Source: an uncultured Eubacteriales bacterium (lineage in GTDB: Bacteria > Bacillota > Clostridia > Oscillospirales > Acutalibacteraceae). Taken from it: 32,032 bases of DNA. This document shows positions 2,949-14,163 of this stretch, in pieces. The notes under the pieces were generated by a model. That model was given only the letters and a program-made list of their open reading frames with translations. It was not told the origin of the DNA and searched no databases. Made by a program: the position numbers and the translations under genes. Within the stretch, counting starts at the first letter, position 1, and each line of letters opens with the position of its first letter. The stretch is taken from positions 1 to 32,032 of the forward strand of contig ONAX01000012.1 of the NCBI GenBank assembly GCA_900315875.1, written 5' to 3'.

Positions 2949-4094
2949 TTATTCAAATTCATCGAAATGCTTCTGCAGACCTGAATATACTGTATCATCG
3001 GGATTTTCTTCGATCAGGCTTGCAAGTGCATTCTTATATATATCGGTATTGTAAAGCTTGTCAATATCATAATCATCTGTATAGCCAAGCTTGACAACAG
3101 AATCCTTAAGAGCTACTGTACCCTGCTTGTCCGGATCCGGAACGGATGTGCCGTACCCGCCGTAAACCTCGGTATTGATAAGCTCTTCATCGATATCGAT
3201 GTACTTCTTTACATCCTTTACTGTCTGTTCCTTGTTTTCCTGTGTAAACTTATATGCCTTTATAAGTGCTCTTTCAAATGCATTGTAGGAATTCGGGTAT
3301 TTGCTCAACGCCGCAGTGGCTGCGACCTGACGGCAGCAGGGCTGGTTTTTGAGCAGTGGCTCTTCTGAGCAGCGGTAAACAATCTTGTAGCCCTGGCTCT
3401 CAGCAAGTGAGGTATAGGGTGAATATGCCGAAACAGCATCTATAGTGTCATTCTGCAGAGCATTGTATGCGTCCTTCTGACTATCAAAATAAACAATGTT
3501 TACCTTGTCCTCTCCCTCGCCTATCTCGATACCTTTGTCTTTAAGAAGTATCTGCAGCTCGGCGTCCTGAACACTGTTTTTAACAGAAGCAACGTTTCTT
3601 CCTTTAAGAATAGATATATCCCATTTATCAAGACCTTCGACATATTCAGGCTTGATAACATAACCGTGACCGTTTGTCATTGCACCGCCGAAGATCGTCA
3701 GATCGTGTCCCTGGCTCTGGAATGTTATTGAGGGAACTGAACCGATAAATGCAACATCGAGCTTTTCGGATTCAAGTCCGGATGCAAGCTCTGCAGCAGA
3801 TGAGAAAAGCGTAAGGGTTACGTCAAGTCCCTCGTCATCAAAGTAACCTTCTTCCTTAGCAACAAAGCCCAGAAGATGAGCTGTAGAATTGAGGTGACCG
3901 AGATTGAAGCTTGTCTTTTCAAGTTCAGCACCCTGTGATGCAGTCGATGCTGCGGATGAATTATCACCACTTGAAGTGCCTGCAGCAGAGGAAGAAGCTC
4001 CGCCGTCGGTTGTATTACAGCCTGCGAGGGCTGTCAGTGAAAGTGTTGCTGCAAAAAACGCAGCTGCTATTCTTGTCTTTATCTTTGTATTCAT
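2949..4094 (-). CDS. ABC transporter substrate-binding lipoprotein, NMT1/SsuA-like
   Basis: A 381-residue extracellular lipoprotein. The signal peptide MNTKIKTRIAAAFFAATLSL is followed by the lipobox LTALAGC, then a Ser/Ala-rich linker and a periplasmic-binding-protein type II fold of the sulfonate/nitrate/taurine group (segments such as YFDDEGLDVTLTLFSS and LDVAFIGSVPSI). I moved the start to the ATG at 4094 because it has an SD (AAAGGAAAG) at proper spacing and yields a clean signal peptide; an in-frame ATG lies 18 nt upstream. A CC pair occurs inside the mature domain (NQPCCRQ), unusual for a secreted protein. It follows the Cys-Cys lipoprotein gene closely, so both share the leader described below. 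Confidence 0.88.
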   Translation of the reverse strand: MNTKIKTRIAAAFFAATLSLTALAGCNTTDGGASSSAAGTSSGDNSSAASTASQGAELEKTSFNLGHLNSTAHLLGFVAKEEGYFDDEGLDVTLTLFSSAAELASGLESEKLDVAFIGSVPSITFQSQGHDLTIFGGAMTNGHGYVIKPEYVEGLDKWDISILKGRNVASVKNSVQDAELQILLKDKGIEIGEGEDKVNIVYFDSQKDAYNALQNDTIDAVSAYSPYTSLAESQGYKIVYRCSEEPLLKNQPCCRQVAATAALSKYPNSYNAFERALIKAYKFTQENKEQTVKDVKKYIDIDEELINTEVYGGYGTSVPDPDKQGTVALKDSVVKLGYTDDYDIDKLYNTDIYKNALASLIEENPDDTVYSGLQKHFDEFE

Positions 4095-4124
4095 GATTAT
4101 CTTTCCTTTCATTCTTATGTATAT

Positions 4125-4580
4125 TTATTCGCCGTCACAGCAATCAGGAATATGAGAGCTTTCTGCTGTTTTGTTTCTGCAGCATTCTGGAACCCCGGAA
4201 TCCTCATCTGAGCCTTCCTTGCAGCAGTCGTGGTTTGCTGATCCCTCTTCTGATTTTTCACTGCAGCAGTCAGGCATGCTGTCTTGTTCTGAGTCCTCCT
4301 GCTTGCAGCAATCAGGCTTTTCACTATGCTGCTCATCGTCTTCATTATGACAACAGCTCTTTTCGTGACTCTTTGCTGCTGATTCTTCGCTGCTTTCTGC
4401 TTCAGTTGATGGAGCCGGACTGTTTTCAGTTGAAGCTTCTGTACTGCTTTCATTTTCAGCAGATGATACTGAGCTGCCATCAGAGCTTGTGTCAGTCTTT
4501 TCCGGGACTGCTGCACATCCTGCCAGGACGGTTACACTCAGTGCTGCGGCAAGCAGTGCCGCTGTGATGATTTTCTTCAT
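4125..4580 (-). CDS. Secreted lipoprotein with six Cys-Cys pairs, function unknown
   Basis: This 151-residue protein matches no family I recognise. It has a signal peptide with lipobox (LSVTVLAGC, lipid Cys at residue 22), a Ser/Glu/Thr-rich linker (about 25-73) and a repeat region (about 74-151) with six CC pairs: one SCCH, then DCC, DCC, DCC, ECC and DCC, spaced roughly 13-16 residues and separated by acidic, hydrophilic spacers. There is no predicted globular core. Such a tail could bind metal ions, exchange disulfides with extracellular cystine, or hand a ligand to the adjacent binding protein; all three are inference. It is the first gene of the importer operon, 30 nt before the binding-protein start, and directly follows a cysteine-rich leader ORF and terminator. 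The start has an AAGGAAAAGGA SD. Confidence 0.8.
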   Translation of the reverse strand: MKKIITAALLAAALSVTVLAGCAAVPEKTDTSSDGSSVSSAENESSTEASTENSPAPSTEAESSEESAAKSHEKSCCHNEDDEQHSEKPDCCKQEDSEQDSMPDCCSEKSEEGSANHDCCKEGSDEDSGVPECCRNKTAESSHIPDCCDGE

Positions 4581-6664: not shown

Positions 6665-7576
6665 TTATTCATATAGATTTTTTGTAAAATATCTGTCTCC
6701 GCGGTCAGGAAGTATTATCACTATATTTCCTCTTGCACCGCCTGCAATCAGTTTTTTTGCGGCCGCAAGTGCAGCGCCTGAGGATGAACCGGCAAATATG
6801 CCCTCTGCCCTTGCAAGCTCTCGCGCACCGTCGAAAGCCTCGCTGTCAGTCATTTTGACAACCTTGTCAACAAGAGACATATCCATTGTATCAGCAATAA
6901 AGTCATTGCCGATGCCCTCAATATCATAATCCCCGTGCTCACCGCCGCCCATTGTTGAACCGACCGGATCGGCAAGGACACCGATAATGCCGCTGTTCCT
7001 TTCCTTGAGGTATTTTACAACTCCGGAATACGTACCGCCGCTGCCTGCGCCTGCAACAAGATAATCTATATTTCCGCCGAGGTCGTCGTATATTTCCTTA
7101 CCCGTTGTTTCATAATGTGCCAGCGGATTTGCCGGATTCTTGAACTGCTCAAGCGTTACGGCACCCGGTATGGACTGTCTTATTTCCTCGGCTTTTTTCC
7201 ATGCGCCAAGCATTCCGCCCTCGCGCGGAGTATTGATTATTCTTGCTCCGAGTGCACGCAGAAGCGTCTGTTTTTCCTGAGAAAACTTTGTCGGAACCAC
7301 AAAGATGATCTGGTATCCCCTGTTAAGAGCTGCAAATGCAATGCCCAGACCGGTGTTTCCGGCAGTTGCCTCAACGATAACTCCGCCTTTTTTCAGTATA
7401 CCGCGTCTTTCGGCATCCTCTATCATGTATTTTCCGATTCTGTCCTTTACGCTGCCTGAGGGATTGAAAAGCTCCAGCTTAGCGTAAAGTCTTACGTCAT
7501 CCGGCAGTCCAAGATGATTGAGTCGTACAAGCGGCGTATTGCCGATCAGCTGCTGCATGTCTTCATAAAGTGCCAT
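6665..7576 (-). CDS. mccA: O-acetylserine-dependent cystathionine beta-synthase / cysteine synthase homolog
   Basis: A 303-residue fold-type II PLP enzyme. PLP lysine K44 is in GSVKDRIGKYM, and the phosphate-binding loop is GAGSGGTYSG. The variant motif EATAGNTGLG (rather than the EPTSGNTG of typical CysK) matches MccA/YrhA, which condenses homocysteine with O-acetylserine to cystathionine. The neighbour MccB lyase, only 2 nt away, supports this. It is the second CysK-like protein in the window, and the two clearly differ in active-site loops. Plain cysteine synthase activity cannot be excluded. Confidence 0.82.
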   Translation of the reverse strand: MALYEDMQQLIGNTPLVRLNHLGLPDDVRLYAKLELFNPSGSVKDRIGKYMIEDAERRGILKKGGVIVEATAGNTGLGIAFAALNRGYQIIFVVPTKFSQEKQTLLRALGARIINTPREGGMLGAWKKAEEIRQSIPGAVTLEQFKNPANPLAHYETTGKEIYDDLGGNIDYLVAGAGSGGTYSGVVKYLKERNSGIIGVLADPVGSTMGGGEHGDYDIEGIGNDFIADTMDMSLVDKVVKMTDSEAFDGARELARAEGIFAGSSSGAALAAAKKLIAGGARGNIVIILPDRGDRYFTKNLYE

Positions 7577-7578
7577 AA

Positions 7579-8736
7579 TCAGACCTCACTTTCTGCAATA
7601 GCGTGTTCAAGATCGGCAAGAATATCGTCGATATTCTCTATACCGATTGAAAGACGGATAAGTCCGTCCGTAATGCCTATCTGCTGACGCACATCATATG
7701 GAATTGACGCATGTGTCATGCTTGCCGGATGGCATACAAGACTCTCAACGCCGCCGAGACTTTCGGCAAGAGCAACAAGTCTGAGCGATTTAAAGAACTT
7801 TTTGATATCATAGTTTTCGTACAGCTCAAACGAAATCATTGCGCCGCCGTTTTTAGCCTGCTTTTTGTTAATTTCATAACCCTGAGCGTCAGGCAGACCG
7901 GGATAGTAAACCTTTTTGACAGCCTTATGATCACTGAGGAATTTTGCAGCCTTTTCAGCATTTTCTACATGACGGTCAAGACGTACTCCGAGGGTCTTTA
8001 TTCCGCGGATAAGCAGGAAGCTGTCAAAGGGACCGAGCACACCGCCCGTGGAATTCTGAATGAATGCAAGCTGTCTTGCAAGCTCATCATCGTTAACCAC
8101 AACAAGTCCTGCAACGACGTCACTGTGACCGCCGAGATACTTTGTTGCGCTGTGGATAACGATATCCGCGCCAAGCTCCAGCGGGCGCTGCAGATACGGA
8201 GTCATAAAGGTATTATCTACTATAGACAGGATACCGTGCTTTGCCGCAAGTCTTGCAACAGCTCCGAGGTCAGTAACGGTAAGCAGGGGGTTGGCAGGGC
8301 TTTCGACAAGAATAGCCTTTACATCATCTGTTATCTTCTTTTCAAGTCCATCAATGTCGGTAGTATCCTCAATTGAATAGCCTATACCGAAATGATTGAA
8401 AACCTTGTCAAGAACACGGAACGTTCCGCCGTAAACATTGCTGGAAATAAGAATACGATCCCCTGTATGAAAAAGACTCAGCACAGCTGTAATTGCAGCC
8501 ATTCCCGAAGCAAAGGCAAAACCGGATTTTCCGTGCTCAAGCTCTGCGATAAGTGCCTCAAGAGCTGCACGGGTGGGGTTACCTGTTCTGGAATATTCCC
8601 AGCGGGGTTCTTCACCGATACCGCTTTGCTCATAGGTCGAAGTCTGATAAATCGGCACATTGACCGCCTTTGTATATTCGTCTCCGTATATTCCCCCGTG
8701 AATGAGGGCTGATTCGACTTTATTATAGTTTGACAT
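7579..8736 (-). CDS. mccB: Cystathionine gamma-lyase (trans-sulfuration PLP enzyme)
   Basis: A 385-residue Cys/Met-metabolism PLP enzyme. The Schiff-base lysine is K199 in HSATKYLGGHSD; the YSRTGNPTR motif (about residues 48-56) binds the cofactor phosphate from the partner subunit, and VESPANP and DNTFMTP are also canonical. It would cleave cystathionine to cysteine, ammonia and 2-oxobutyrate, and may desulfhydrate homocysteine. It sits between luxS (5-nt gap) and mccA (2-nt gap), the arrangement expected for converting methionine-derived homocysteine to cysteine. Length and motifs fit; gamma-synthase activity is a less likely alternative. Confidence 0.88.
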   Translation of the reverse strand: MSNYNKVESALIHGGIYGDEYTKAVNVPIYQTSTYEQSGIGEEPRWEYSRTGNPTRAALEALIAELEHGKSGFAFASGMAAITAVLSLFHTGDRILISSNVYGGTFRVLDKVFNHFGIGYSIEDTTDIDGLEKKITDDVKAILVESPANPLLTVTDLGAVARLAAKHGILSIVDNTFMTPYLQRPLELGADIVIHSATKYLGGHSDVVAGLVVVNDDELARQLAFIQNSTGGVLGPFDSFLLIRGIKTLGVRLDRHVENAEKAAKFLSDHKAVKKVYYPGLPDAQGYEINKKQAKNGGAMISFELYENYDIKKFFKSLRLVALAESLGGVESLVCHPASMTHASIPYDVRQQIGITDGLIRLSIGIENIDDILADLEHAIAESEV

Positions 8737-8741
8737 GATAA

Positions 8742-9203
8742 TTACTCCTTATATTTCAAATTGTTTTCAGTATAATTTCCGAGTATCTCAAGCATATCTT
8801 CTGCAGTTTTTTTCGCTGTTTTTAGATCGTGCTCCAGATAATTACCGCATTCCTCTTTTTTGCTTCCGGGTATTTCACCCTCAAAATCCGCGATGAATCT
8901 GAAACTGTCCTGTACGATTTTTATTGCCTGACTATGTGAAATGCTGTCCCTTACAAGAAGGTAAAAACCTGTACGACACCCCATAGGTCCTACATAAATA
9001 ACGCTATCGGATATTTCGCTGTTTCTTGCGAAGGTTGCGAAAAGATGTTCTATCGTGTGCAGTTCACCGTTTCCGAGATAATCTCCCCCGTTCGGCTTTT
9101 TCATTCTTATATCATATGTCACGACATCTCCGTCAATCCGGGAAATATACATTCCCTTTTCAAGCTTGTCGTGATTTACGGTAAAGCTTGCTATTTTCTT
9201 CAT
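8742..9203 (-). CDS. luxS: S-ribosylhomocysteine lyase (LuxS)
   Basis: A 153-residue iron/zinc-dependent enzyme that splits S-ribosylhomocysteine into homocysteine and DPD, the precursor of autoinducer 2. The metal site is visible: H49 and H53 in HTIEH, and C119 in EECGNY. The catalytic Cys76 lies in GCRTGFY. Its ATG overlaps the metK stop (TGATG). In this operon its main role is probably homocysteine recovery for cysteine synthesis, with AI-2 as a by-product. The nucleosidase (Pfs/MTAN) that makes its substrate is not in the window. Confidence 0.96.
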   Translation of the reverse strand: MKKIASFTVNHDKLEKGMYISRIDGDVVTYDIRMKKPNGGDYLGNGELHTIEHLFATFARNSEISDSVIYVGPMGCRTGFYLLVRDSISHSQAIKIVQDSFRFIADFEGEIPGSKKEECGNYLEHDLKTAKKTAEDMLEILGNYTENNLKYKE

Positions 9204-10396
9204 CAGACCACCTCCCTGAGGTGATTTTCAAAATAGCTTCTAAGCTCAATTGCAAGGTCTGTTTTTTCCCACGGCAGGTCAATATCCGTTCTGCCGAAAT
9301 GACCGTATGAAGCGGTTTCGGAATATATCGGACGCTGCAGATCGAAACGCTCTATTATTTTTGAAGGTCTCAGATCAACAACGTTTTCTATTGCCCGTGT
9401 GATTTTTTCGTCGGATACCTTTCCGGTACCGAATGTATTAACGAGTATAGAAACCGGATGAGCAACACCGATCGCATATGCAAGCTGAATTTCCGCCCTG
9501 TCGGCAAGTCCTGCAGAAACGATATTTTTTGCAAGATACCTTGCAGCATACGCCGCGCTCCTGTCAACCTTTGTGGGATCCTTTCCGGAGAAAGCTCCGC
9601 CTCCGTGAGCGGCTGCGCCGCCGTAGGTATCAACAATGATCTTTCTGCCGGTCAGTCCGCTGTCACCTACTGGTCCTCCGATTACAAATCGTCCGGTGGG
9701 ATTGATCAGAATTTTATAATCATCATCCCTCCACTTTTCAGGAATAACAGGTCTGATAACAAAGCGGATAAGATCCTCTCTGATCTGCTCCTGCGTTACA
9801 TCAGGATCGTGCTGAGTTGAAATCAGGACCGTATCAATCCCGACTGGTACACCATTCTCATATTTTATGGAAACCTGTGTTTTTCCGTCGGGTCTGAGAT
9901 AAGAAAGCGTATGGTTTTCTCTGACCTCCGTCAGCTTTTTTGACAGCTTGTGCGCAAGTGAAATTGCAAGCGGCATAAGCTCCTCTGTTTCGTTTACTGC
10001 ATAGCCGAACATCATTCCCTGATCTCCCGCTCCAAGGCTGCTTTCCTGTATACCGCGGTTTTCAAGTGCTTCATCAACGCCCTGAGCAATATCAGGCGAC
10101 TGTTTATCTATAAGCTGTATTATTTCAGCGGAATGGCCGTCAAACCCAAGCTCGGGCCGGTCATATCCGATACTGTTGATAGTCTGTCTGACTGTTTTCT
10201 CAATTTCGACATTCGCCAGGGAAGAAACCTCGCCGGCAAGTACTACCGTATTGTTTTTTACAACAGTTTCAACAGCCACACGGGCATTTTTATCCTTTTT
10301 CAGGTATGCGTCCAGTATAGAATCAGATATCATATCGCAGACCTTATCGGGATGACCCTTTGTTACCGATTCCGAAGTAAATATATATCTTTCCAT
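9203..10396 (-). CDS. metK: S-adenosylmethionine synthetase
   Basis: A 397-residue enzyme making SAM from methionine and ATP. All signatures are present: [16 protein letters not shown] at the N-terminus, [12 protein letters not shown] (about residue 120), and [19 protein letters not shown] near residue 260. I chose the ATG at 10396, two codons inside the longest open frame, because it gives the canonical [10 protein letters not shown] start and better SD spacing (GGAG, 10 nt). Being inside a methionine-to-cysteine operon rather than alone is unusual: it feeds the methyltransferase upstream and LuxS downstream. Confidence 0.96.
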
Positions 10397-10398
10397 CT

Positions 10399-11307
10399 TC
10401 AATCTTCTCCTTTTATCACTGACATGAAATGAATGTTTTCAAATGCATATATTTCGTCGTCCCTGCCGTCGAAATATTTCTGCTGTATCATCTGGGGTGT
10501 TTCGTGCTCCTCTGTTTCAAAGCCGTATCGATTCATCACTTCTGTTATTTCCGGCAGCGAGTACCCGTGCAGCATTCTTTCTCCGAGCTTTTCCGTTATT
10601 TCGGCAAGAGTCCTGACCCTTTCGGGATTCACGGATTTCAGCGTCGTTTCGTCAGGATAATCAAAAACTATGCTGACCGCAGATCTGCCAAGCTCCGAAA
10701 TTTTCCTGACGGTTTGTTCAAACACCGGCAGAGTCAGGTAATACGACACGCCGAGTATCGCAAAAAATGACGGGATTTCGGGATCAAAGCCTGCCGCAAG
10801 CAGCCGCTCTCCCATATCATCCTTCGAGAAATCGACAGGGACAAAGACCAGATTTTCAGGAACTATCCATTCAAGCTGCCTTATCCTGTCCCTTTTATAC
10901 CTGCCTGTATCGGGATGATCCAGTTCGAAAATCCTGATATCCTTATTGCTGTTTCTGAATGCAAAGGTATCCATTCCGGCTCCGCAGATAACATACTGGC
11001 ATCTGCCGTATCTTGAAGCAAAATCATTCAGCTTCTGCTCGGCAAAGGCTATGCGTGAAAGCGGTATGGGAAAAATATACCTGTTCAGTGCCGGAGCAAT
11101 AAGCGATGTCTCGAATTCCGGATTATCCGTTATTCTGTCCGGCTCAAAATCATTCTGTATAAGCTGACCTATCTCGTCAAATTCCTCCTTACCCATCATA
11201 TCGTAGGCAAGGTAATCGTCAAAAATCTTTTTTCTCCCTGTATTTGAATGATAGGCACGGGCAAAGGAACATAGCTTTGCCGTTATGCTTTCCTGTGTTG
11301 CTATCAT
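10399..11307 (-). CDS. SAM-dependent methyltransferase, Ppm/LCMT-like (TIGR00027-type)
   Basis: A 302-residue class I methyltransferase resembling the leucine-carboxyl-methyltransferase-like bacterial family: N-terminal FARAYHS, a DYLAYDMMG segment, the SAM-binding loop [13 protein letters not shown] (about residues 105-117) and the acidic FELDHP. The substrate is unknown. It opens the part of the operon behind the attenuator and is followed at once by metK, luxS, mccB and mccA. In B. subtilis an unrelated-looking methyltransferase, YrrT, holds the same place in the mcc operon, so this protein probably generates S-adenosylhomocysteine from SAM as the entry to reverse transsulfuration. The SD AAAGGAAG lies 7 nt before the ATG. 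Confidence 0.8.
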
Positions 11308-11325
11308 AAATTATCTTCCTTTCAG

Positions 11326-11365
11326 AAAAAAAGCCGCCTGAACTGCATAAGGCAGAACAGACGGC
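11326..11365 (-). terminator. Intrinsic terminator (attenuator) upstream of the methyltransferase-metK-luxS-mccBA genes
   Basis: On the minus strand two 14-nt arms (11352-11365 and 11333-11346) pair around a 5-nt loop with one G-U and two mismatches, followed by seven U. The methyltransferase ATG is only 19 nt further on. The 5' arm is exactly complementary over 10 nt (11357-11366, TGCCGTCTGT) to 11409-11418 inside the leader ORF, giving a mutually exclusive antiterminator. It functions as a conditional rather than end-of-operon terminator. Confidence 0.85.
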
Positions 11366-11382
11366 ATGGCAGAAAACCTTTT

Positions 11383-11532
11383 TTAAGGTAAAACAAAGCA
11401 CAACAGGCTGCCGTCTGTGTCATTAGAGCACATACAACAGCAACAAAAAGACGCAGCAGTGCCACCGGAAACTATGGCATTGTTTCCGGCAAAAAGGGGG
11501 TTATTATAATAAACACTGCTGCTTCGTTTCAT
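11383..11532 (-). CDS. Cysteine-run leader peptide (49 aa), putative tRNA-Cys attenuator of the methionine-to-cysteine operon
   Basis: A 50-codon ORF starts 12 nt after the cysK stop, with SD AGAGG 8 nt before ATG. The peptide ends ...ASFCCCCMCSNDTDGSLLCFVLP: five of six consecutive codons (30-35) are Cys, with one more at 45. Flanking RNA arms fit a trp-type attenuator. Arm 1 (11450-11459) lies just before the Cys codons. Arm 2 (11408-11418) lies just after and can pair with arm 1 (with a 2-nt bulge) or perfectly with arm 3 (11357-11366), the terminator's 5' side. A ribosome stalled on the Cys codons covers arm 1, freeing arm 2 to block the terminator. A separate 8-bp hairpin (CCGGAAAC/GTTTCCGG, about 11462-11488) lies earlier in the ORF. 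The regulatory role is inference from this geometry. Confidence 0.85.
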   Translation of the reverse strand: MKRSSSVYYNNPLFAGNNAIVSGGTAASFCCCCMCSNDTDGSLLCFVLP

Positions 11533-11544
11533 TTCAATTACCTC

Positions 11545-12468
11545 TTATCCTGTAAACATAGGTGTGGACAGATACCGCTCGCCTGTGTCGGGCAGTATCA
11601 CAACAATTATCTTCCCTTTATTCTCCGGACGCTTCGCAAGCTGACGTGCAGCCCAGACTGCAGCGCCGGAGGAAATACCAACAAGCAGCCCTTCCTCCTT
11701 GGCAAGTTGTCTGCCTGTTTCAAAAGCATCCTCATTGGTTACTTTTATAATTTCGTCATATACTTCCGTGTTCAGCGTTTCCGGCACAAAGCCTGCGCCG
11801 ATACCCTGTATCTTATGCGGACCGGGCTTTTCTCCCGACAGTACCGGTGAACCTGCAGGCTCTACTGCAACCACTCTGACTGCAGGATTCTTACTTTTAA
11901 GATATTCTCCGACACCCGAAATCGTGCCTCCGGTGCCGACGCCTGCAACGAATATATCCACCCTTCCGTCCGTGTCATCCCAGATTTCCGGACCGGTAGT
12001 ATCGAAATGGGCCTGTGGGTTCGCGCTGTTTGTAAACTGACTTGGTATAAAGCTGTGGACATTTTCCGCTGCCAGCTCCTGAGCCTTTTCTATTGCGCCC
12101 TTCATTCCCTTGACGCCCTCGGTCAGAACAACCTTTGCGCCGTATGCCCTCAGAAGATTTCTGCGTTCAATGCTCATCGTTTCCGGCATTGTCAGGATTA
12201 CCTGATATCCTCTTGCAGCCGCAACAGCCGCAAGACCTATTCCGGTATTGCCGCTTGTAGGCTCGATAATTACGGAATCGGGCTTCAGAATGCCCTTTGC
12301 CTCTGCATCCTCTATCATAGCCTTGGCTATTCTGTCCTTAACGCTCCCGGCAGGATTGAAATACTCAAGCTTGCCGAAAATCGTTGCTCCTGTATGACCT
12401 TCAATAGCCTTAAGCTCCAGAAGCGGTGTGTTGCCTATGATATCGGTTATATTCTTGTATGTCTTCAT
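11545..12468 (-). CDS. cysK: Cysteine synthase A (O-acetylserine sulfhydrylase)
   Basis: A 307-residue PLP enzyme that makes cysteine from O-acetylserine and sulfide. PLP lysine K44 is in [11 protein letters not shown]. The substrate loop [10 protein letters not shown] (about 68-77), the phosphate loop [10 protein letters not shown] and [11 protein letters not shown] are all canonical. It is the first structural gene of its transcript; the Cys-run leader ORF begins 12 nt after its stop, so cysK is made whether or not the attenuator lets transcription continue. The SD GAGGAG precedes the ATG and may be partly masked (see the short leader ORF). Confidence 0.95.
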
Positions 12469-12510
12469 AAACTATTCTCTCCTCAGAAATGACTGTACAA
12501 AATAGCAGCG

Positions 12511-12543
12511 TCAACATCGTTTTTGAGGGATTCTTATATTCAT
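12511..12543 (-). CDS. Short leader peptide MNIRIPQKRC upstream of cysK
   Basis: A 10-codon ORF with a strong SD (AAGGAG, 8 nt before the chosen ATG; a second ATG 6 nt upstream is too close) ends in a Cys codon then TGA. Codons 6-7 contain CCTCA (12524-12528), complementary to TGAGG (12481-12485) inside the cysK SD. A ribosome paused at the terminal Cys codon would cover CCTCA and expose that SD, so translational attenuation is possible. The helix is only 5 bp and no terminator is present, so this is weaker than the other two leaders. Confidence 0.5.
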   Translation of the reverse strand: MNIRIPQKRC

Positions 12544-12574
12544 AATCATTGCTCCTTACTAAATATCACATATC

Positions 12575-12636
12575 ACCTATGTAATTAGTAGGTTTATGCT
12601 ATAAAGTATTATCTCACAACAAAAGAGTTTTGTCAA
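12575..12636 (-). promoter_or_regulatory. cysK promoter with 19-bp operator
   Basis: A near-consensus sigma-A promoter on the minus strand: TTGACA (12631-12636), 17-nt spacer, GATAAT (12608-12613). The operator ACCTA-CTAATTACA-TAGGT (12575-12593) lies in the initially transcribed region, the usual place for a repressor. Further upstream, at about 12658-12672, is a near-perfect 15-nt palindrome with ATAGGAT/ATCCTAT arms. Confidence 0.8.
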
Positions 12637-12777
12637 GTTTATTTTTTTATTACATATATAGGATAATCCTATTACCGATTATTCAATTCACTTAATATCT
12701 TAATCTATAAGTTTTTCAGCGAAAAGAGGCACTGCCTGTGCGGATATTGTCTTTTTGGCAGAAACAGTTCCCCGAAA
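12637..12777. other. Intergenic stretch between the thiol-ligase operon and the cysK promoter
   Basis: AT-rich DNA holding only the ATAGGAT/ATCCTAT palindrome (about 12658-12672). I see no convincing intrinsic terminator for the upstream operon, so read-through into cysK is possible. Confidence 0.5.
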
Positions 12778-14163
12778 TCAAACTCTGCCGTAATCTTTTA
12801 CAATATCGTTTATCTTATCGCCGTTTTTCAGCCGCTCAAGCATTGACCTTGCCGGATTGGTCCTTTTCTCAACACGATCATAAAGAGGTGCAAGATATAT
12901 TTCTTCACCAAAACCACGCTCAGCAAGTCCTTCCTTACAAAGGTCAAGAACACTTTTGGCAAGAAGGTACATTCCGTCAATATTGATATAAGCAGGCAAC
13001 TCATTGCACACAAGCTGACGGCGGAGTTCAACTGCATTATAACCGTTATTATATAGCGACCTGTCATTTTTCATCAGATCAGAAAGCTCCGACGTTTTAT
13101 TCAGAAGTCCGAGGTGAAAAGCCGAAACCGACATCACATCAGATATAGGCTGGCAGCAGGCACTGCGGAATTCGATAGTACCCCTGTAGGTCAGGTCTTC
13201 AAATTTGAATGTACGAAGATATGATATATCCTCCGGCTGAGGATGAAACTCCATTGAACGTATCTCTCCGTTTTCAAGGTATTCTCCGGTCAGCGTATTT
13301 GTGTTGAAATATTCAAGGATATTGACAGGCCTGAAATTCAGATACTTACCGTCACGCTCAACGCAGTAGATAGCCGAAGTGGAAATATAATTCAGAATGT
13401 CGTCAACAGTTCTGATTTCACAGTCATACATACCCACATTATGAGGATTAATACCGTGCGTACTATTTTCCCAGAGCATATCACGGCAGCACAGAAGCTC
13501 CTCGTTTTCCCCCAGAAGTACTGAATTATTGTAAAGCAGAGCCTTTACGGGTTCAAGCTGATTGAAGGTATCGATAACCAGCGGTGCGGTTTCTTTGGTA
13601 ACATCAAGCTGCACCTGTGATGCGCTTGAAAACATACCGAACTGGGGATAGCGGTGAAAATACATAGGAATGCAGGCATATTTTGAAAATGACGAAAGAT
13701 GATGAAACAGCATTTTATATCTGCCGTTTTCAATAGGAACATTATTGTTGACAAGCCTGTTCGGATTAATACCCATTCCCGTCAGAGTATAATTATACGG
13801 TCCGAAAAAGTCCTGCACAAAAGCATAATATCTGTAAAAGCGTCCGTGTATCGAATGAAGGTCTTTTTCCTTGCCGAAGGAAAACTCCATATTGTTATAT
13901 GAACAGTCGTAGGAAAAAATATCTCCGTTATCCTGATTCAGTGCGGAGTAGATATTTCCCTGTTCGTCGGTACCCGTGGGGATAAATCCAAACTCCTTCA
14001 GAAATGCCGATGTCAGCCTATGCACTATTTCAAAATCAACAGCCCTGTGTTCAAGATTGACGATAGGCATTTCGATTTCAACACCGATGAAGCTGTCCTT
14101 TTTTGTTTCAGTGGGTTTTATATAGCGGTCATAAAGACGGCTCAGTATTTCTTCTTTTGTCAT
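12778..14163 (-). CDS. Glutamate-cysteine-ligase-like carboxylate-amine ligase (GCS2/EgtA-like)
   Basis: A 461-residue protein of the GCS2 type, the group holding plant/alphaproteobacterial glutamate-cysteine ligases and EgtA. The N-terminal IGVEIEMPIVNLE (about 24-36) is the family's glutamate/metal-binding strand; YNNMEFSFGKEKDL and TIEFRSACCQP (near residue 335) also fit. I start at the ATG at 14163, which has GGAGG at 8 nt; the upstream in-frame ATG overlaps that SD. It presumably joins a gamma-glutamyl group to an amine or thiol-containing amino acid, using ATP. Having this enzyme together with a true GshA suggests a different substrate. It is the last gene of a three-gene operon with gshA and the amidotransferase. 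Confidence 0.75.
   Translation of the reverse strand: MTKEEILSRLYDRYIKPTETKKDSFIGVEIEMPIVNLEHRAVDFEIVHRLTSAFLKEFGFIPTGTDEQGNIYSALNQDNGDIFSYDCSYNNMEFSFGKEKDLHSIHGRFYRYYAFVQDFFGPYNYTLTGMGINPNRLVNNNVPIENGRYKMLFHHLSSFSKYACIPMYFHRYPQFGMFSSASQVQLDVTKETAPLVIDTFNQLEPVKALLYNNSVLLGENEELLCCRDMLWENSTHGINPHNVGMYDCEIRTVDDILNYISTSAIYCVERDGKYLNFRPVNILEYFNTNTLTGEYLENGEIRSMEFHPQPEDISYLRTFKFEDLTYRGTIEFRSACCQPISDVMSVSAFHLGLLNKTSELSDLMKNDRSLYNNGYNAVELRRQLVCNELPAYINIDGMYLLAKSVLDLCKEGLAERGFGEEIYLAPLYDRVEKRTNPARSMLERLKNGDKINDIVKDYGRV

Follow-up and report, generated by a model that had tools for sequence, protein, structure and literature searches.

A probable cysteine leader-peptide transcription attenuator, conserved in a genus of rumen Clostridia, that separates cysK from the methionine-to-cysteine genes

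In the attenuators of the trp, his, and leu operons of enterobacteria, a leader ORF with control codons is followed by mutually exclusive 1:2, 2:3, and 3:4 pairings and by an intrinsic terminator. In the Clostridia, amino acid sensing is usually ascribed to T-boxes. The polycysteine short ORFs of mycobacteria treated by Canestrari in 2020 are reportedly leaderless, going by the title of that study. A number of leader peptides have been described closer to the element presented here, either in lineage or in amino acid. Bacilli harbor a histidine leader peptide of hisZ and of a hisS paralog, and according to the portion of the article cited here, its authors knew of no earlier leader peptide system demonstrated outside the Proteobacteria and Actinobacteria (Naville and Gautheret 2010, PMC2965389). 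In the Rhodobacterales, uORFC-8-2 upstream of cysS combines Cys codons in a uORF with stems and a U-run terminator, and a response to Cys-tRNA has been proposed in the section drawn on here (PMC8632094). Cys leader peptides occur in Actinobacteria, and those of Mycobacterium are described, in the part of the source used, as having no conserved terminator hairpins (PMC1262725). The ubiGmccBA operons of Clostridium perfringens and Clostridium acetobutylicum are governed by a Cys T-box, to which the latter species adds an S-box and an antisense RNA, as given in the excerpt of the paper considered here (PMC2940859). In searches of an open-access PMC library, we recognized no clostridial attenuator with a cysteine leader peptide, nor one preceding mccB or luxS.

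The stretch of DNA analyzed here, referred to as the window, is 32,032 nucleotides long and derives from a genome of 2.26 Mb that is 98.5% complete. The genes and leader elements described for it are on its minus strand, where the gene order is cysK, leader ORF, terminator, methyltransferase, metK, luxS, mccB, mccA, and a lysR-type gene. The gene upstream of the leader is cysK (PALP family; 11545 to 12468). Past the attenuator, the first gene encodes a SAM-dependent methyltransferase (LCM, PF04072; TIGR00027; 10399 to 11307), with its own Shine-Dalgarno (SD) sequence, AAGGAAG, outside the terminator hairpin. It is followed by metK (9203 to 10402), luxS (8742 to 9203), a gene for an mccB-type Cys/Met PLP enzyme (7579 to 8736), and one for an mccA-type PALP enzyme (6665 to 7576), the last two being named from family and context. 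The gene families of the operon are consistent with cysteine synthesis. The element between cysK and the methionine-to-cysteine genes is very probably a ribosome-mediated, cysteine-specific transcription attenuator. A sequence-only reading of this DNA had proposed a cysteine leader-peptide transcription attenuator in front of methyltransferase-metK-luxS-mccB-mccA, and the proposal is supported by the anatomy of the element, by the conservation of that anatomy, and by complementarity that, in the antiterminator, co-varies among diverse leaders.

The leader ORF (11383 to 11532), directly behind cysK, encodes the 49-residue peptide MKRSSSVYYNNPLFAGNNAIVSGGTAASFCCCCMCSNDTDGSLLCFVLP. It starts 12 bases past the cysK stop codon, which is overlapped by the leader's SD sequence, AAGAGG; this SD block is kept in an alignment of genus-level leaders (A1, see below). 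Residues 30 to 35 are CCCCMC, and the putative regulatory codons, TGT TGC TGT TGT (ATG) TGC, span 11428 to 11445, with Cys codons at 11445-11434 and 11430-11428, so that five of six codons specify Cys and the remaining one Met. The 49-codon ORF, the SD sequence, and the five Cys in six codons that had been read from the letters are all present. In relatives, Cys is retained and its codons vary: the Cys clusters of 53 leaders contain TGT 180 times versus TGC 80 times, the residue being kept while the codon alternates. The usual forms of the run are CCCMCC, CCCMCCC, CCMCC, and CCMCCC, commonly with DTGG or DTDG next. Within the genus, the DTGG stretch is almost invariant as nucleotides (ACAGRCGGC), as expected because it constitutes arm 2. 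The odd Met/Leu codon within the Cys run may fit the pairing of arm 1 with arm 2.

Arm 2, CACAGACGGCAGC (11407 to 11419), has a 10-nt core (11409-11418) that is common to the 1:2 and 2:3 pairings. As the earlier reading had it, this core (11418-11409, ACAGACGGCA) forms a perfect 10-bp match with arm 3 (11366-11357, TGCCGTCTGT). Arm 3 can be the partner either of arm 2, forming the antiterminator, or of arm 4, forming the terminator, and the two structures overlap. The intrinsic terminator (11326 to 11365) consists of a stem, 11365-11358 with 11340-11333, and a T-run at 11332-11326, ending at 11326. At -21.7 kcal/mol and a z score of -5.9 against shuffles (11365-11333 plus T-run), the predicted arm 3:arm 4 terminator with its U-run is present in the sequence, and the whole region 11304-11550 has a folding z score of -5.6.

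The assignment of arm 1 had to be revised. The pairing originally claimed, 11450-11459 with 11408-11415, can form, with a best duplex of -12.3 kcal/mol, but the Cys codons pair better: 11441-11429 with arm 2 at 11419-11407 reaches -15.7 kcal/mol. Arm 2 likewise pairs better with the Cys codons than with the preceding stretch in 41 of the 48 leaders compared, the other five of the 53 having no arm 2 motif. Arm 1 is thus best assigned to the Cys codons themselves (11429 to 11441; 12 of 13 positions paired with arm 2) and not to the stretch upstream of them. We rejected the stretch 11450-11459 as the main protector because its duplex is weaker and because it belongs to a separate covarying hairpin. 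The 1:2 pairing displayed no covariation above shuffles among genus-level leaders.

That separate hairpin lies within the leader ORF, 5' of the Cys codons (11453 to 11522). It pairs 11522-11514 with 11461-11453 and, in its inner part, 11489-11482 with 11472-11465, with a folding energy of -32.1 kcal/mol and a z score of -4.1; the stretch previously taken for arm 1 is its 3' side. Among 32 leaders, 8 of its 17 pairs are changed on both sides, which 9 of 500 shuffles reach, and its percentage paired and covariation score are reached by none of 500. In four leaders (L008, L011, L021, and L047) the hairpin is absent and the ORF is far shorter. The hairpin is probably a pause or spacing element; as a pause signal, it might let the ribosome catch up after cysK.

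Conservation was examined in 80 methyltransferase upstream regions, comprising the window and 79 relatives, in which ORFs of 10 to 80 residues were considered; L095, with only 99 nt upstream, was dropped. A short ORF with at least four Cys in seven codons is present in 61 of the 80 regions and absent from 19, compared with 0 of 80 on the antisense strand and a mean of 0.4 of 80 in shuffles. When other residues were submitted to the same run test, Val reached 20 of 80, presumably as the +1 frame of the Cys run. The regions are related to one another, falling into 54 groups at 0.8 similarity, and the Cys run is found in 41 of the 54 representatives. A hairpin of -15 kcal/mol or lower with a T-run follows the Cys run in 56 of the 61 four-Cys leaders, versus 2 to 6 in three shuffles. 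This cutoff was applied because hairpins of any strength with a T-run, found in 59 of the 61, are common in shuffles (39 to 51).

The three arms were evaluated by a strict rule, under which each of the two helices must have 8 or more of its 9 pairs and arm 3 must contain 5 G+C; 45 of 53 leaders satisfy it, versus 6.7 in shuffles. A loose rule with three 9-nt arms is satisfied by 52 of 53 but also by 33.4 of 53 in shuffles; as this makes the loose count weak evidence, the strict rule was used instead. Two leaders are exceptions: L024 is devoid of a T-run, and a credible arm triple is missing from L026. Both were left out of the alignments, the triple being absent or spurious. Removal of near-duplicates at 93% similarity reduced the remaining 51 leaders to 45, of which the 32 at genus level make up alignment A1; A2 consists of 27 of those 32. 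In A1, 2:3 pairs occupy 95.6% of cells, against 24 to 43% when the arms are slid, and both partners have changed in a single pair only. Of the 3:4 helix, the outer eight pairs are present in 31 or 32 of the 32 leaders. Arms 2 to 4 are nearly invariant in the genus, and 3:4 displays no clear covariation above shuffles there. As the arms barely vary at this level, co-variation had to be sought in more distant leaders. With 24 diverse leaders picked by hand from 62, pairing with the leaders' own terminator arms beats pairing with those of other leaders in 500 of 500 permutations (-20.4 versus a permuted value of -17.3, standard deviation 0.56). The antiterminator pairing therefore co-varies between diverse leaders. 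Both the Cys run and the helix complementarity are conserved in relatives, and on this point the original reading stands.

Within the genus, the methyltransferase gene was found in 32 of 64 genomes (the source genome and 63 others), and a Cys-run leader precedes it in 31 of these 32. In 29 of the 31 the leader was found beside the gene by a covariance model built here; in G006 and G054 it was recognized from the ORF. The one remaining genome, G014, has a gene fragment only. In a family sample of 300 genomes, the genus-built model gave 15 matches at an E value of 0.001, four of them strong, own genome included. In the searches of the genus and of the family, all matches with an E value below 1e-6 are in front of this methyltransferase gene. 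Among the weak matches (E above 1e-6) whose loci were inspected and that lie away from the gene (L176 and L180-L190), a Cys cluster is present only in L176, a Cys/Gly-rich small ORF, and in L186, the five-residue MFCCC. At L030, L080, L082, L100, and L107 the leader is present where no cysK match precedes the methyltransferase, indicating that the leader goes with the methyltransferase and not with cysK. Named isolates with the leader include Eubacterium oxidoreducens DSM 3217, Ruminiclostridium sufflavum DSM 19573, Anaerotignum sp. MB30-C6, Ruminococcus bromii YE282, Lachnoclostridium sp. MSJ-17, and Ruminococcaceae bacterium P7, so the mechanism can be tested. Cys-run leaders were also found in bins labeled Treponema/Spirochaetaceae (L100, L105, and L107), Gastranaerophilales (L101), and Alphaproteobacteria (L093), where misassigned contigs are possible. 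If the leaders before methyltransferase-mccBA in the Treponema-labeled and other non-Clostridia bins are true members of those lineages, the switch would travel with its operon across phyla.

Within the source genome, the pattern TGYTGYTGYATGTG has one other match, apparently antisense to another ORF, and the looser TGYTGYTGYTGY has 63 matches. Inspection of 22 loci (20 of the 63 TGYTGYTGYTGY matches and two earlier ones) revealed several short ORFs with three or four consecutive Cys, which were judged to be chance frames (for example L124, L136, and L143), and a wider regulon of this exact element was rejected on these grounds. Other Cys-containing ORFs were seen at related loci. At L086 (about 4068-4126) an ORF of the KRC type, described below for cysK, directly precedes the methyltransferase gene, and at L074 (about 1209) a KRCC-type ORF precedes a leader region that has no Cys run. 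In Selenomonas (L104, L106, and L108-L111), a different short ORF, MKC(D/I)CC, ends about 15 nt before the methyltransferase gene; no terminator was found behind it at these loci, and it is perhaps a translation-level cysteine sensor.

Other explanations of the element were considered. Attenuation might act on translation, or the Cys peptide might itself be bioactive, with transcription termination playing no part; mycobacterial polycysteine ORFs are cited as cysteine-responsive, as translation attenuation, in the part of PMC13236596 used here, and the several Selenomonas loci with a short MKCxCC ORF and no terminator found would fit as well. Against this, the -15 kcal/mol hairpin with its T-run recurs behind nearly all four-Cys leaders (the 56 of 61 above), and the methyltransferase SD sequence is outside the hairpin, which makes this explanation quite unlikely. 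Another possibility is that an ordinary cysK terminator happens to be accompanied by a chance ORF and that the methyltransferase gene has its own promoter. A strong intrinsic terminator is indeed present, and a weak promoter-like ATGAAA-18-TATAAT lies inside the leader. However, the leader and arm 2 are conserved in dozens of genomes, arm 2 would be useless in a plain terminator, and the leader precedes the gene also where no cysK match does; the TATAAT is not kept in alignment A1, and an internal promoter was rejected for that reason. We consider this second possibility very unlikely.

A riboswitch or T-box would account for the hairpin and arms with a ligand other than charged tRNA-Cys, the Cys ORF being incidental, and the same type of operon is under a Cys T-box and an S-box in other clostridia, according to the portion of PMC2940859 cited. 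At the gathering level, however, no T-box, SAM, or other Rfam family matches the site or 31 relative loci, and the Cys residues persist despite the alternation of TGT and TGC. Specifically, neither the T-box (RF00230) nor an S-box/SAM family matches at the site, and the scan of the whole window at the gathering level gave no match; with E values up to 10 allowed, 11200-12800 contains a single match, inside cysK, which we take for chance. A T-box or S-box identity was rejected on this basis, and we regard a riboswitch or T-box here as extremely unlikely. Taken with the evidence above, transcription attenuation governed by the Cys codons is the reading that we prefer.

From this anatomy we infer that the leader is translated, that ribosomes stall in it, that transcription terminates at the hairpin in vivo, and that the response is to tRNA-Cys or cysteine. 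Ribosomes finishing cysK, or binding the SD sequence on the cysK stop codon, would translate the leader. With ample Cys-tRNA, the ribosome would pass the Cys codons, and arm 1 would re-pair with arm 2, or a ribosome at the stop codon would cover arm 2. With arm 2 occupied, arm 3 would pair with arm 4, and transcription would end at about 11326. When Cys-tRNA is scarce, the ribosome would stall on the Cys codons and mask arm 1, leaving arm 2 free to capture arm 3 ahead of the synthesis of arm 4. The polymerase would then continue into the methyltransferase, metK, luxS, mccB, and mccA genes.

The feasibility of this switch was evaluated with an equilibrium folding model in which the ribosome is a mask, with an assumed footprint that reaches 15 nt back and 14 nt forward from the A site, in 43 of the 45 leaders (L084 and L092, whose arms are doubtful, were left out). 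Before arm 4 exists, the median 2:3 probability was 0.74 with no ribosome on the leader. It was 0.96 and 0.98 when the A site contained the first and the second Cys codon, respectively, 0.11 for the last Cys codon, and 0.00 for a ribosome at the stop codon. The value at the first Cys codon exceeded that at the stop codon in 36 of the 43 leaders and that without a ribosome in 37. A ribosome stalled at the last Cys codon covers arm 2 (mean 0.25). In the model, this pattern is the behavior of an attenuator opened by early stalling. Low 2:3 probabilities even at the first Cys codon were obtained for the distant leaders L090 (0.49), L091 (0.05), and L101 (0.23). For the window's own leader, 2:3 is predicted at 0.94 to 0.99 at the first two Cys codons and still at 0.72 at the stop codon; with no ribosome the value is 0.74. 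The modeled switch in the window itself is thus weak. In its full-length RNA at equilibrium, 3:4 is favored (0.89) in every ribosome state; as the terminator is favored in all of these states, the decision would have to be kinetic.

The sequence-only reading also held that cysK is made regardless of cysteine supply. This is unsupported, as a uORF and an operator-like palindrome precede cysK, and cysK itself is therefore probably controlled too, judging from these sequence elements. The uORF, MIMNIRIPQKRC-stop (12511 to 12549), with the core CGATGTTG, ends in ...QKRC-stop and is a possible first cysteine sensor. Of 48 cysK upstream regions, 32 contain the motif, CGATGTTG or CGTTGTTG, along with an in-frame ATG; L023 has CGATGTTC, and L068 also has the motif though scored as a miss, its other cysK having been taken. 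With its 3' context, the motif occurs once in its own genome. At L006, L014, L091, and L092 a further Cys codon replaces the uORF stop (RCC...), suggesting that Cys matters in this uORF. Sequestration of the cysK SD sequence by the uORF was not supported (self pairing of -6.72 versus permuted -6.41, standard deviation 0.33), and alifold found no consensus structure around the uORF. At L009 and L051, a different, structured-looking region (GGGACGA...GTAACTGTATAAAGCAGTA...) lies between the uORF and cysK; it has no Rfam match.

The palindrome AACCTACTAATTACATAGGT (12575 to 12594) lies downstream of the -10 of a promoter-like TTGACA-17-GATAAT (12608 to 12636; a consensus match only). A palindrome of this shape occurs in 39 of 48 cysK upstream regions, versus 0.1 in shuffles. 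Within one mismatch, AACCTAY-N7-ATAGGT has only two sites in the genome, 12575-12594 and 4919-4938, both in the window. We take the palindrome to resemble operators of the Rrf2/CymR/IscR type. The genome encodes one Rrf2-family protein above the family cutoff (C52), which scores below the curated IscR and CymR cutoffs; by analogy with CymR and IscR sites, it may be the reader of the palindrome.

The second palindrome is adjoined by an ORF ending in ...SQKRC and then by a second Cys-rich leader, MTTTVAKKMCTEICMCRTQRSVFCVRACCAFRM (4769-4668), behind which is a hairpin with a T-run (4645-4619). This leader and its terminator precede a lipoprotein rich in Cys pairs and an SsuA-like binding protein, the latter assigned with 100.8 bits, below the NCBIfam cutoff of 163.5. 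The small lipoprotein-like protein with many Cys-Cys pairs, encoded between the leader and the binding protein (4125-4580), has no convincing NCBIfam family. In 19 hand-picked loci spanning the region before the binding protein, a homologue of the second leader ORF was found in all 19 (with fewer Cys in L038). An alignment of 18 of them with the window has a shared terminator, with a different one in L067 and L076. With this second Cys leader and its terminator, control through cysteine codons becomes a recurring theme at the locus.

Elsewhere in the genome there are nine T-box matches, five above the cutoff. Among eight T-boxes inspected, L114 (G000:C44:7627-7840) precedes the serine acetyltransferase gene cysE (TIGR01172 above cutoff) and has TGC where the tyrS and pheS T-boxes of the same genome have TAC and TTC, the specifiers being read by eye. 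A Cys T-box and Cys leaders thus apparently operate side by side in one genome, and the evolutionary choice of sensor is directly testable in it. Tiered cysteine-codon control at the locus, made up of the twice-occurring operator, the KRC ORF near both copies, and the two Cys-leader attenuators (CCCMCC; C..CMC..FCVRACCAFRM), is in our view about as likely as not. If so, cysteine shortage would raise cysK first, and leader stalling would then open the methionine route and uptake, beside the cysE T-box.

Our results describe a probable Cys-run attenuator conserved across a genus of rumen bacteria. If its proposed function is true, LuxS, and possibly AI-2 production, would be placed under cysteine supply. 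The element is real and conserved. Its probable mechanism is a known one, the lineage, the gene set, and the position are new, and the conserved 5' hairpin comes in addition. Like the trp, his, and leu attenuators, it has a leader ORF, control codons, exclusive pairings, and an intrinsic terminator. Unlike them, its control amino acid is Cys and its host belongs to the Clostridia, it lies in the intercistronic space downstream of cysK, its leader SD sequence overlapping the cysK stop codon, and it has an extra covarying hairpin inside the leader ORF; the textbook attenuator has no such hairpin, which is a feature of the present leader.

Among the systems nearest in lineage or amino acid, the histidine leader of bacilli, as portrayed in the cited part of PMC2965389, is likewise a leader peptide of Firmicutes in a gene family that is elsewhere controlled by T-boxes, but with another amino acid, other genes, and another class. 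The alphaproteobacterial uORFC-8-2 shares the Cys codons in a uORF, the stems, and the U-run terminator, but in the section cited it has two tandem Cys codons and precedes a tRNA synthetase gene, cysS (PMC8632094); the present element is not upstream of cysS and thus has a different gene context. Runs of Cys codons before cys genes are also common to the actinobacterial and mycobacterial Cys leaders, whereas an SD sequence, a terminator, and an antiterminator are present here, unlike in the mycobacterial polycysteine ORFs, which are leaderless by title and without conserved terminator hairpins in the part of PMC1262725 drawn on. Finally, as with the Cys T-box of ubiGmccBA in the excerpt of PMC2940859 considered, methionine-to-cysteine genes would respond to cysteine supply at the present locus as well; that T-box binds tRNA directly, whereas the proposed sensor here is a translated run of Cys codons.
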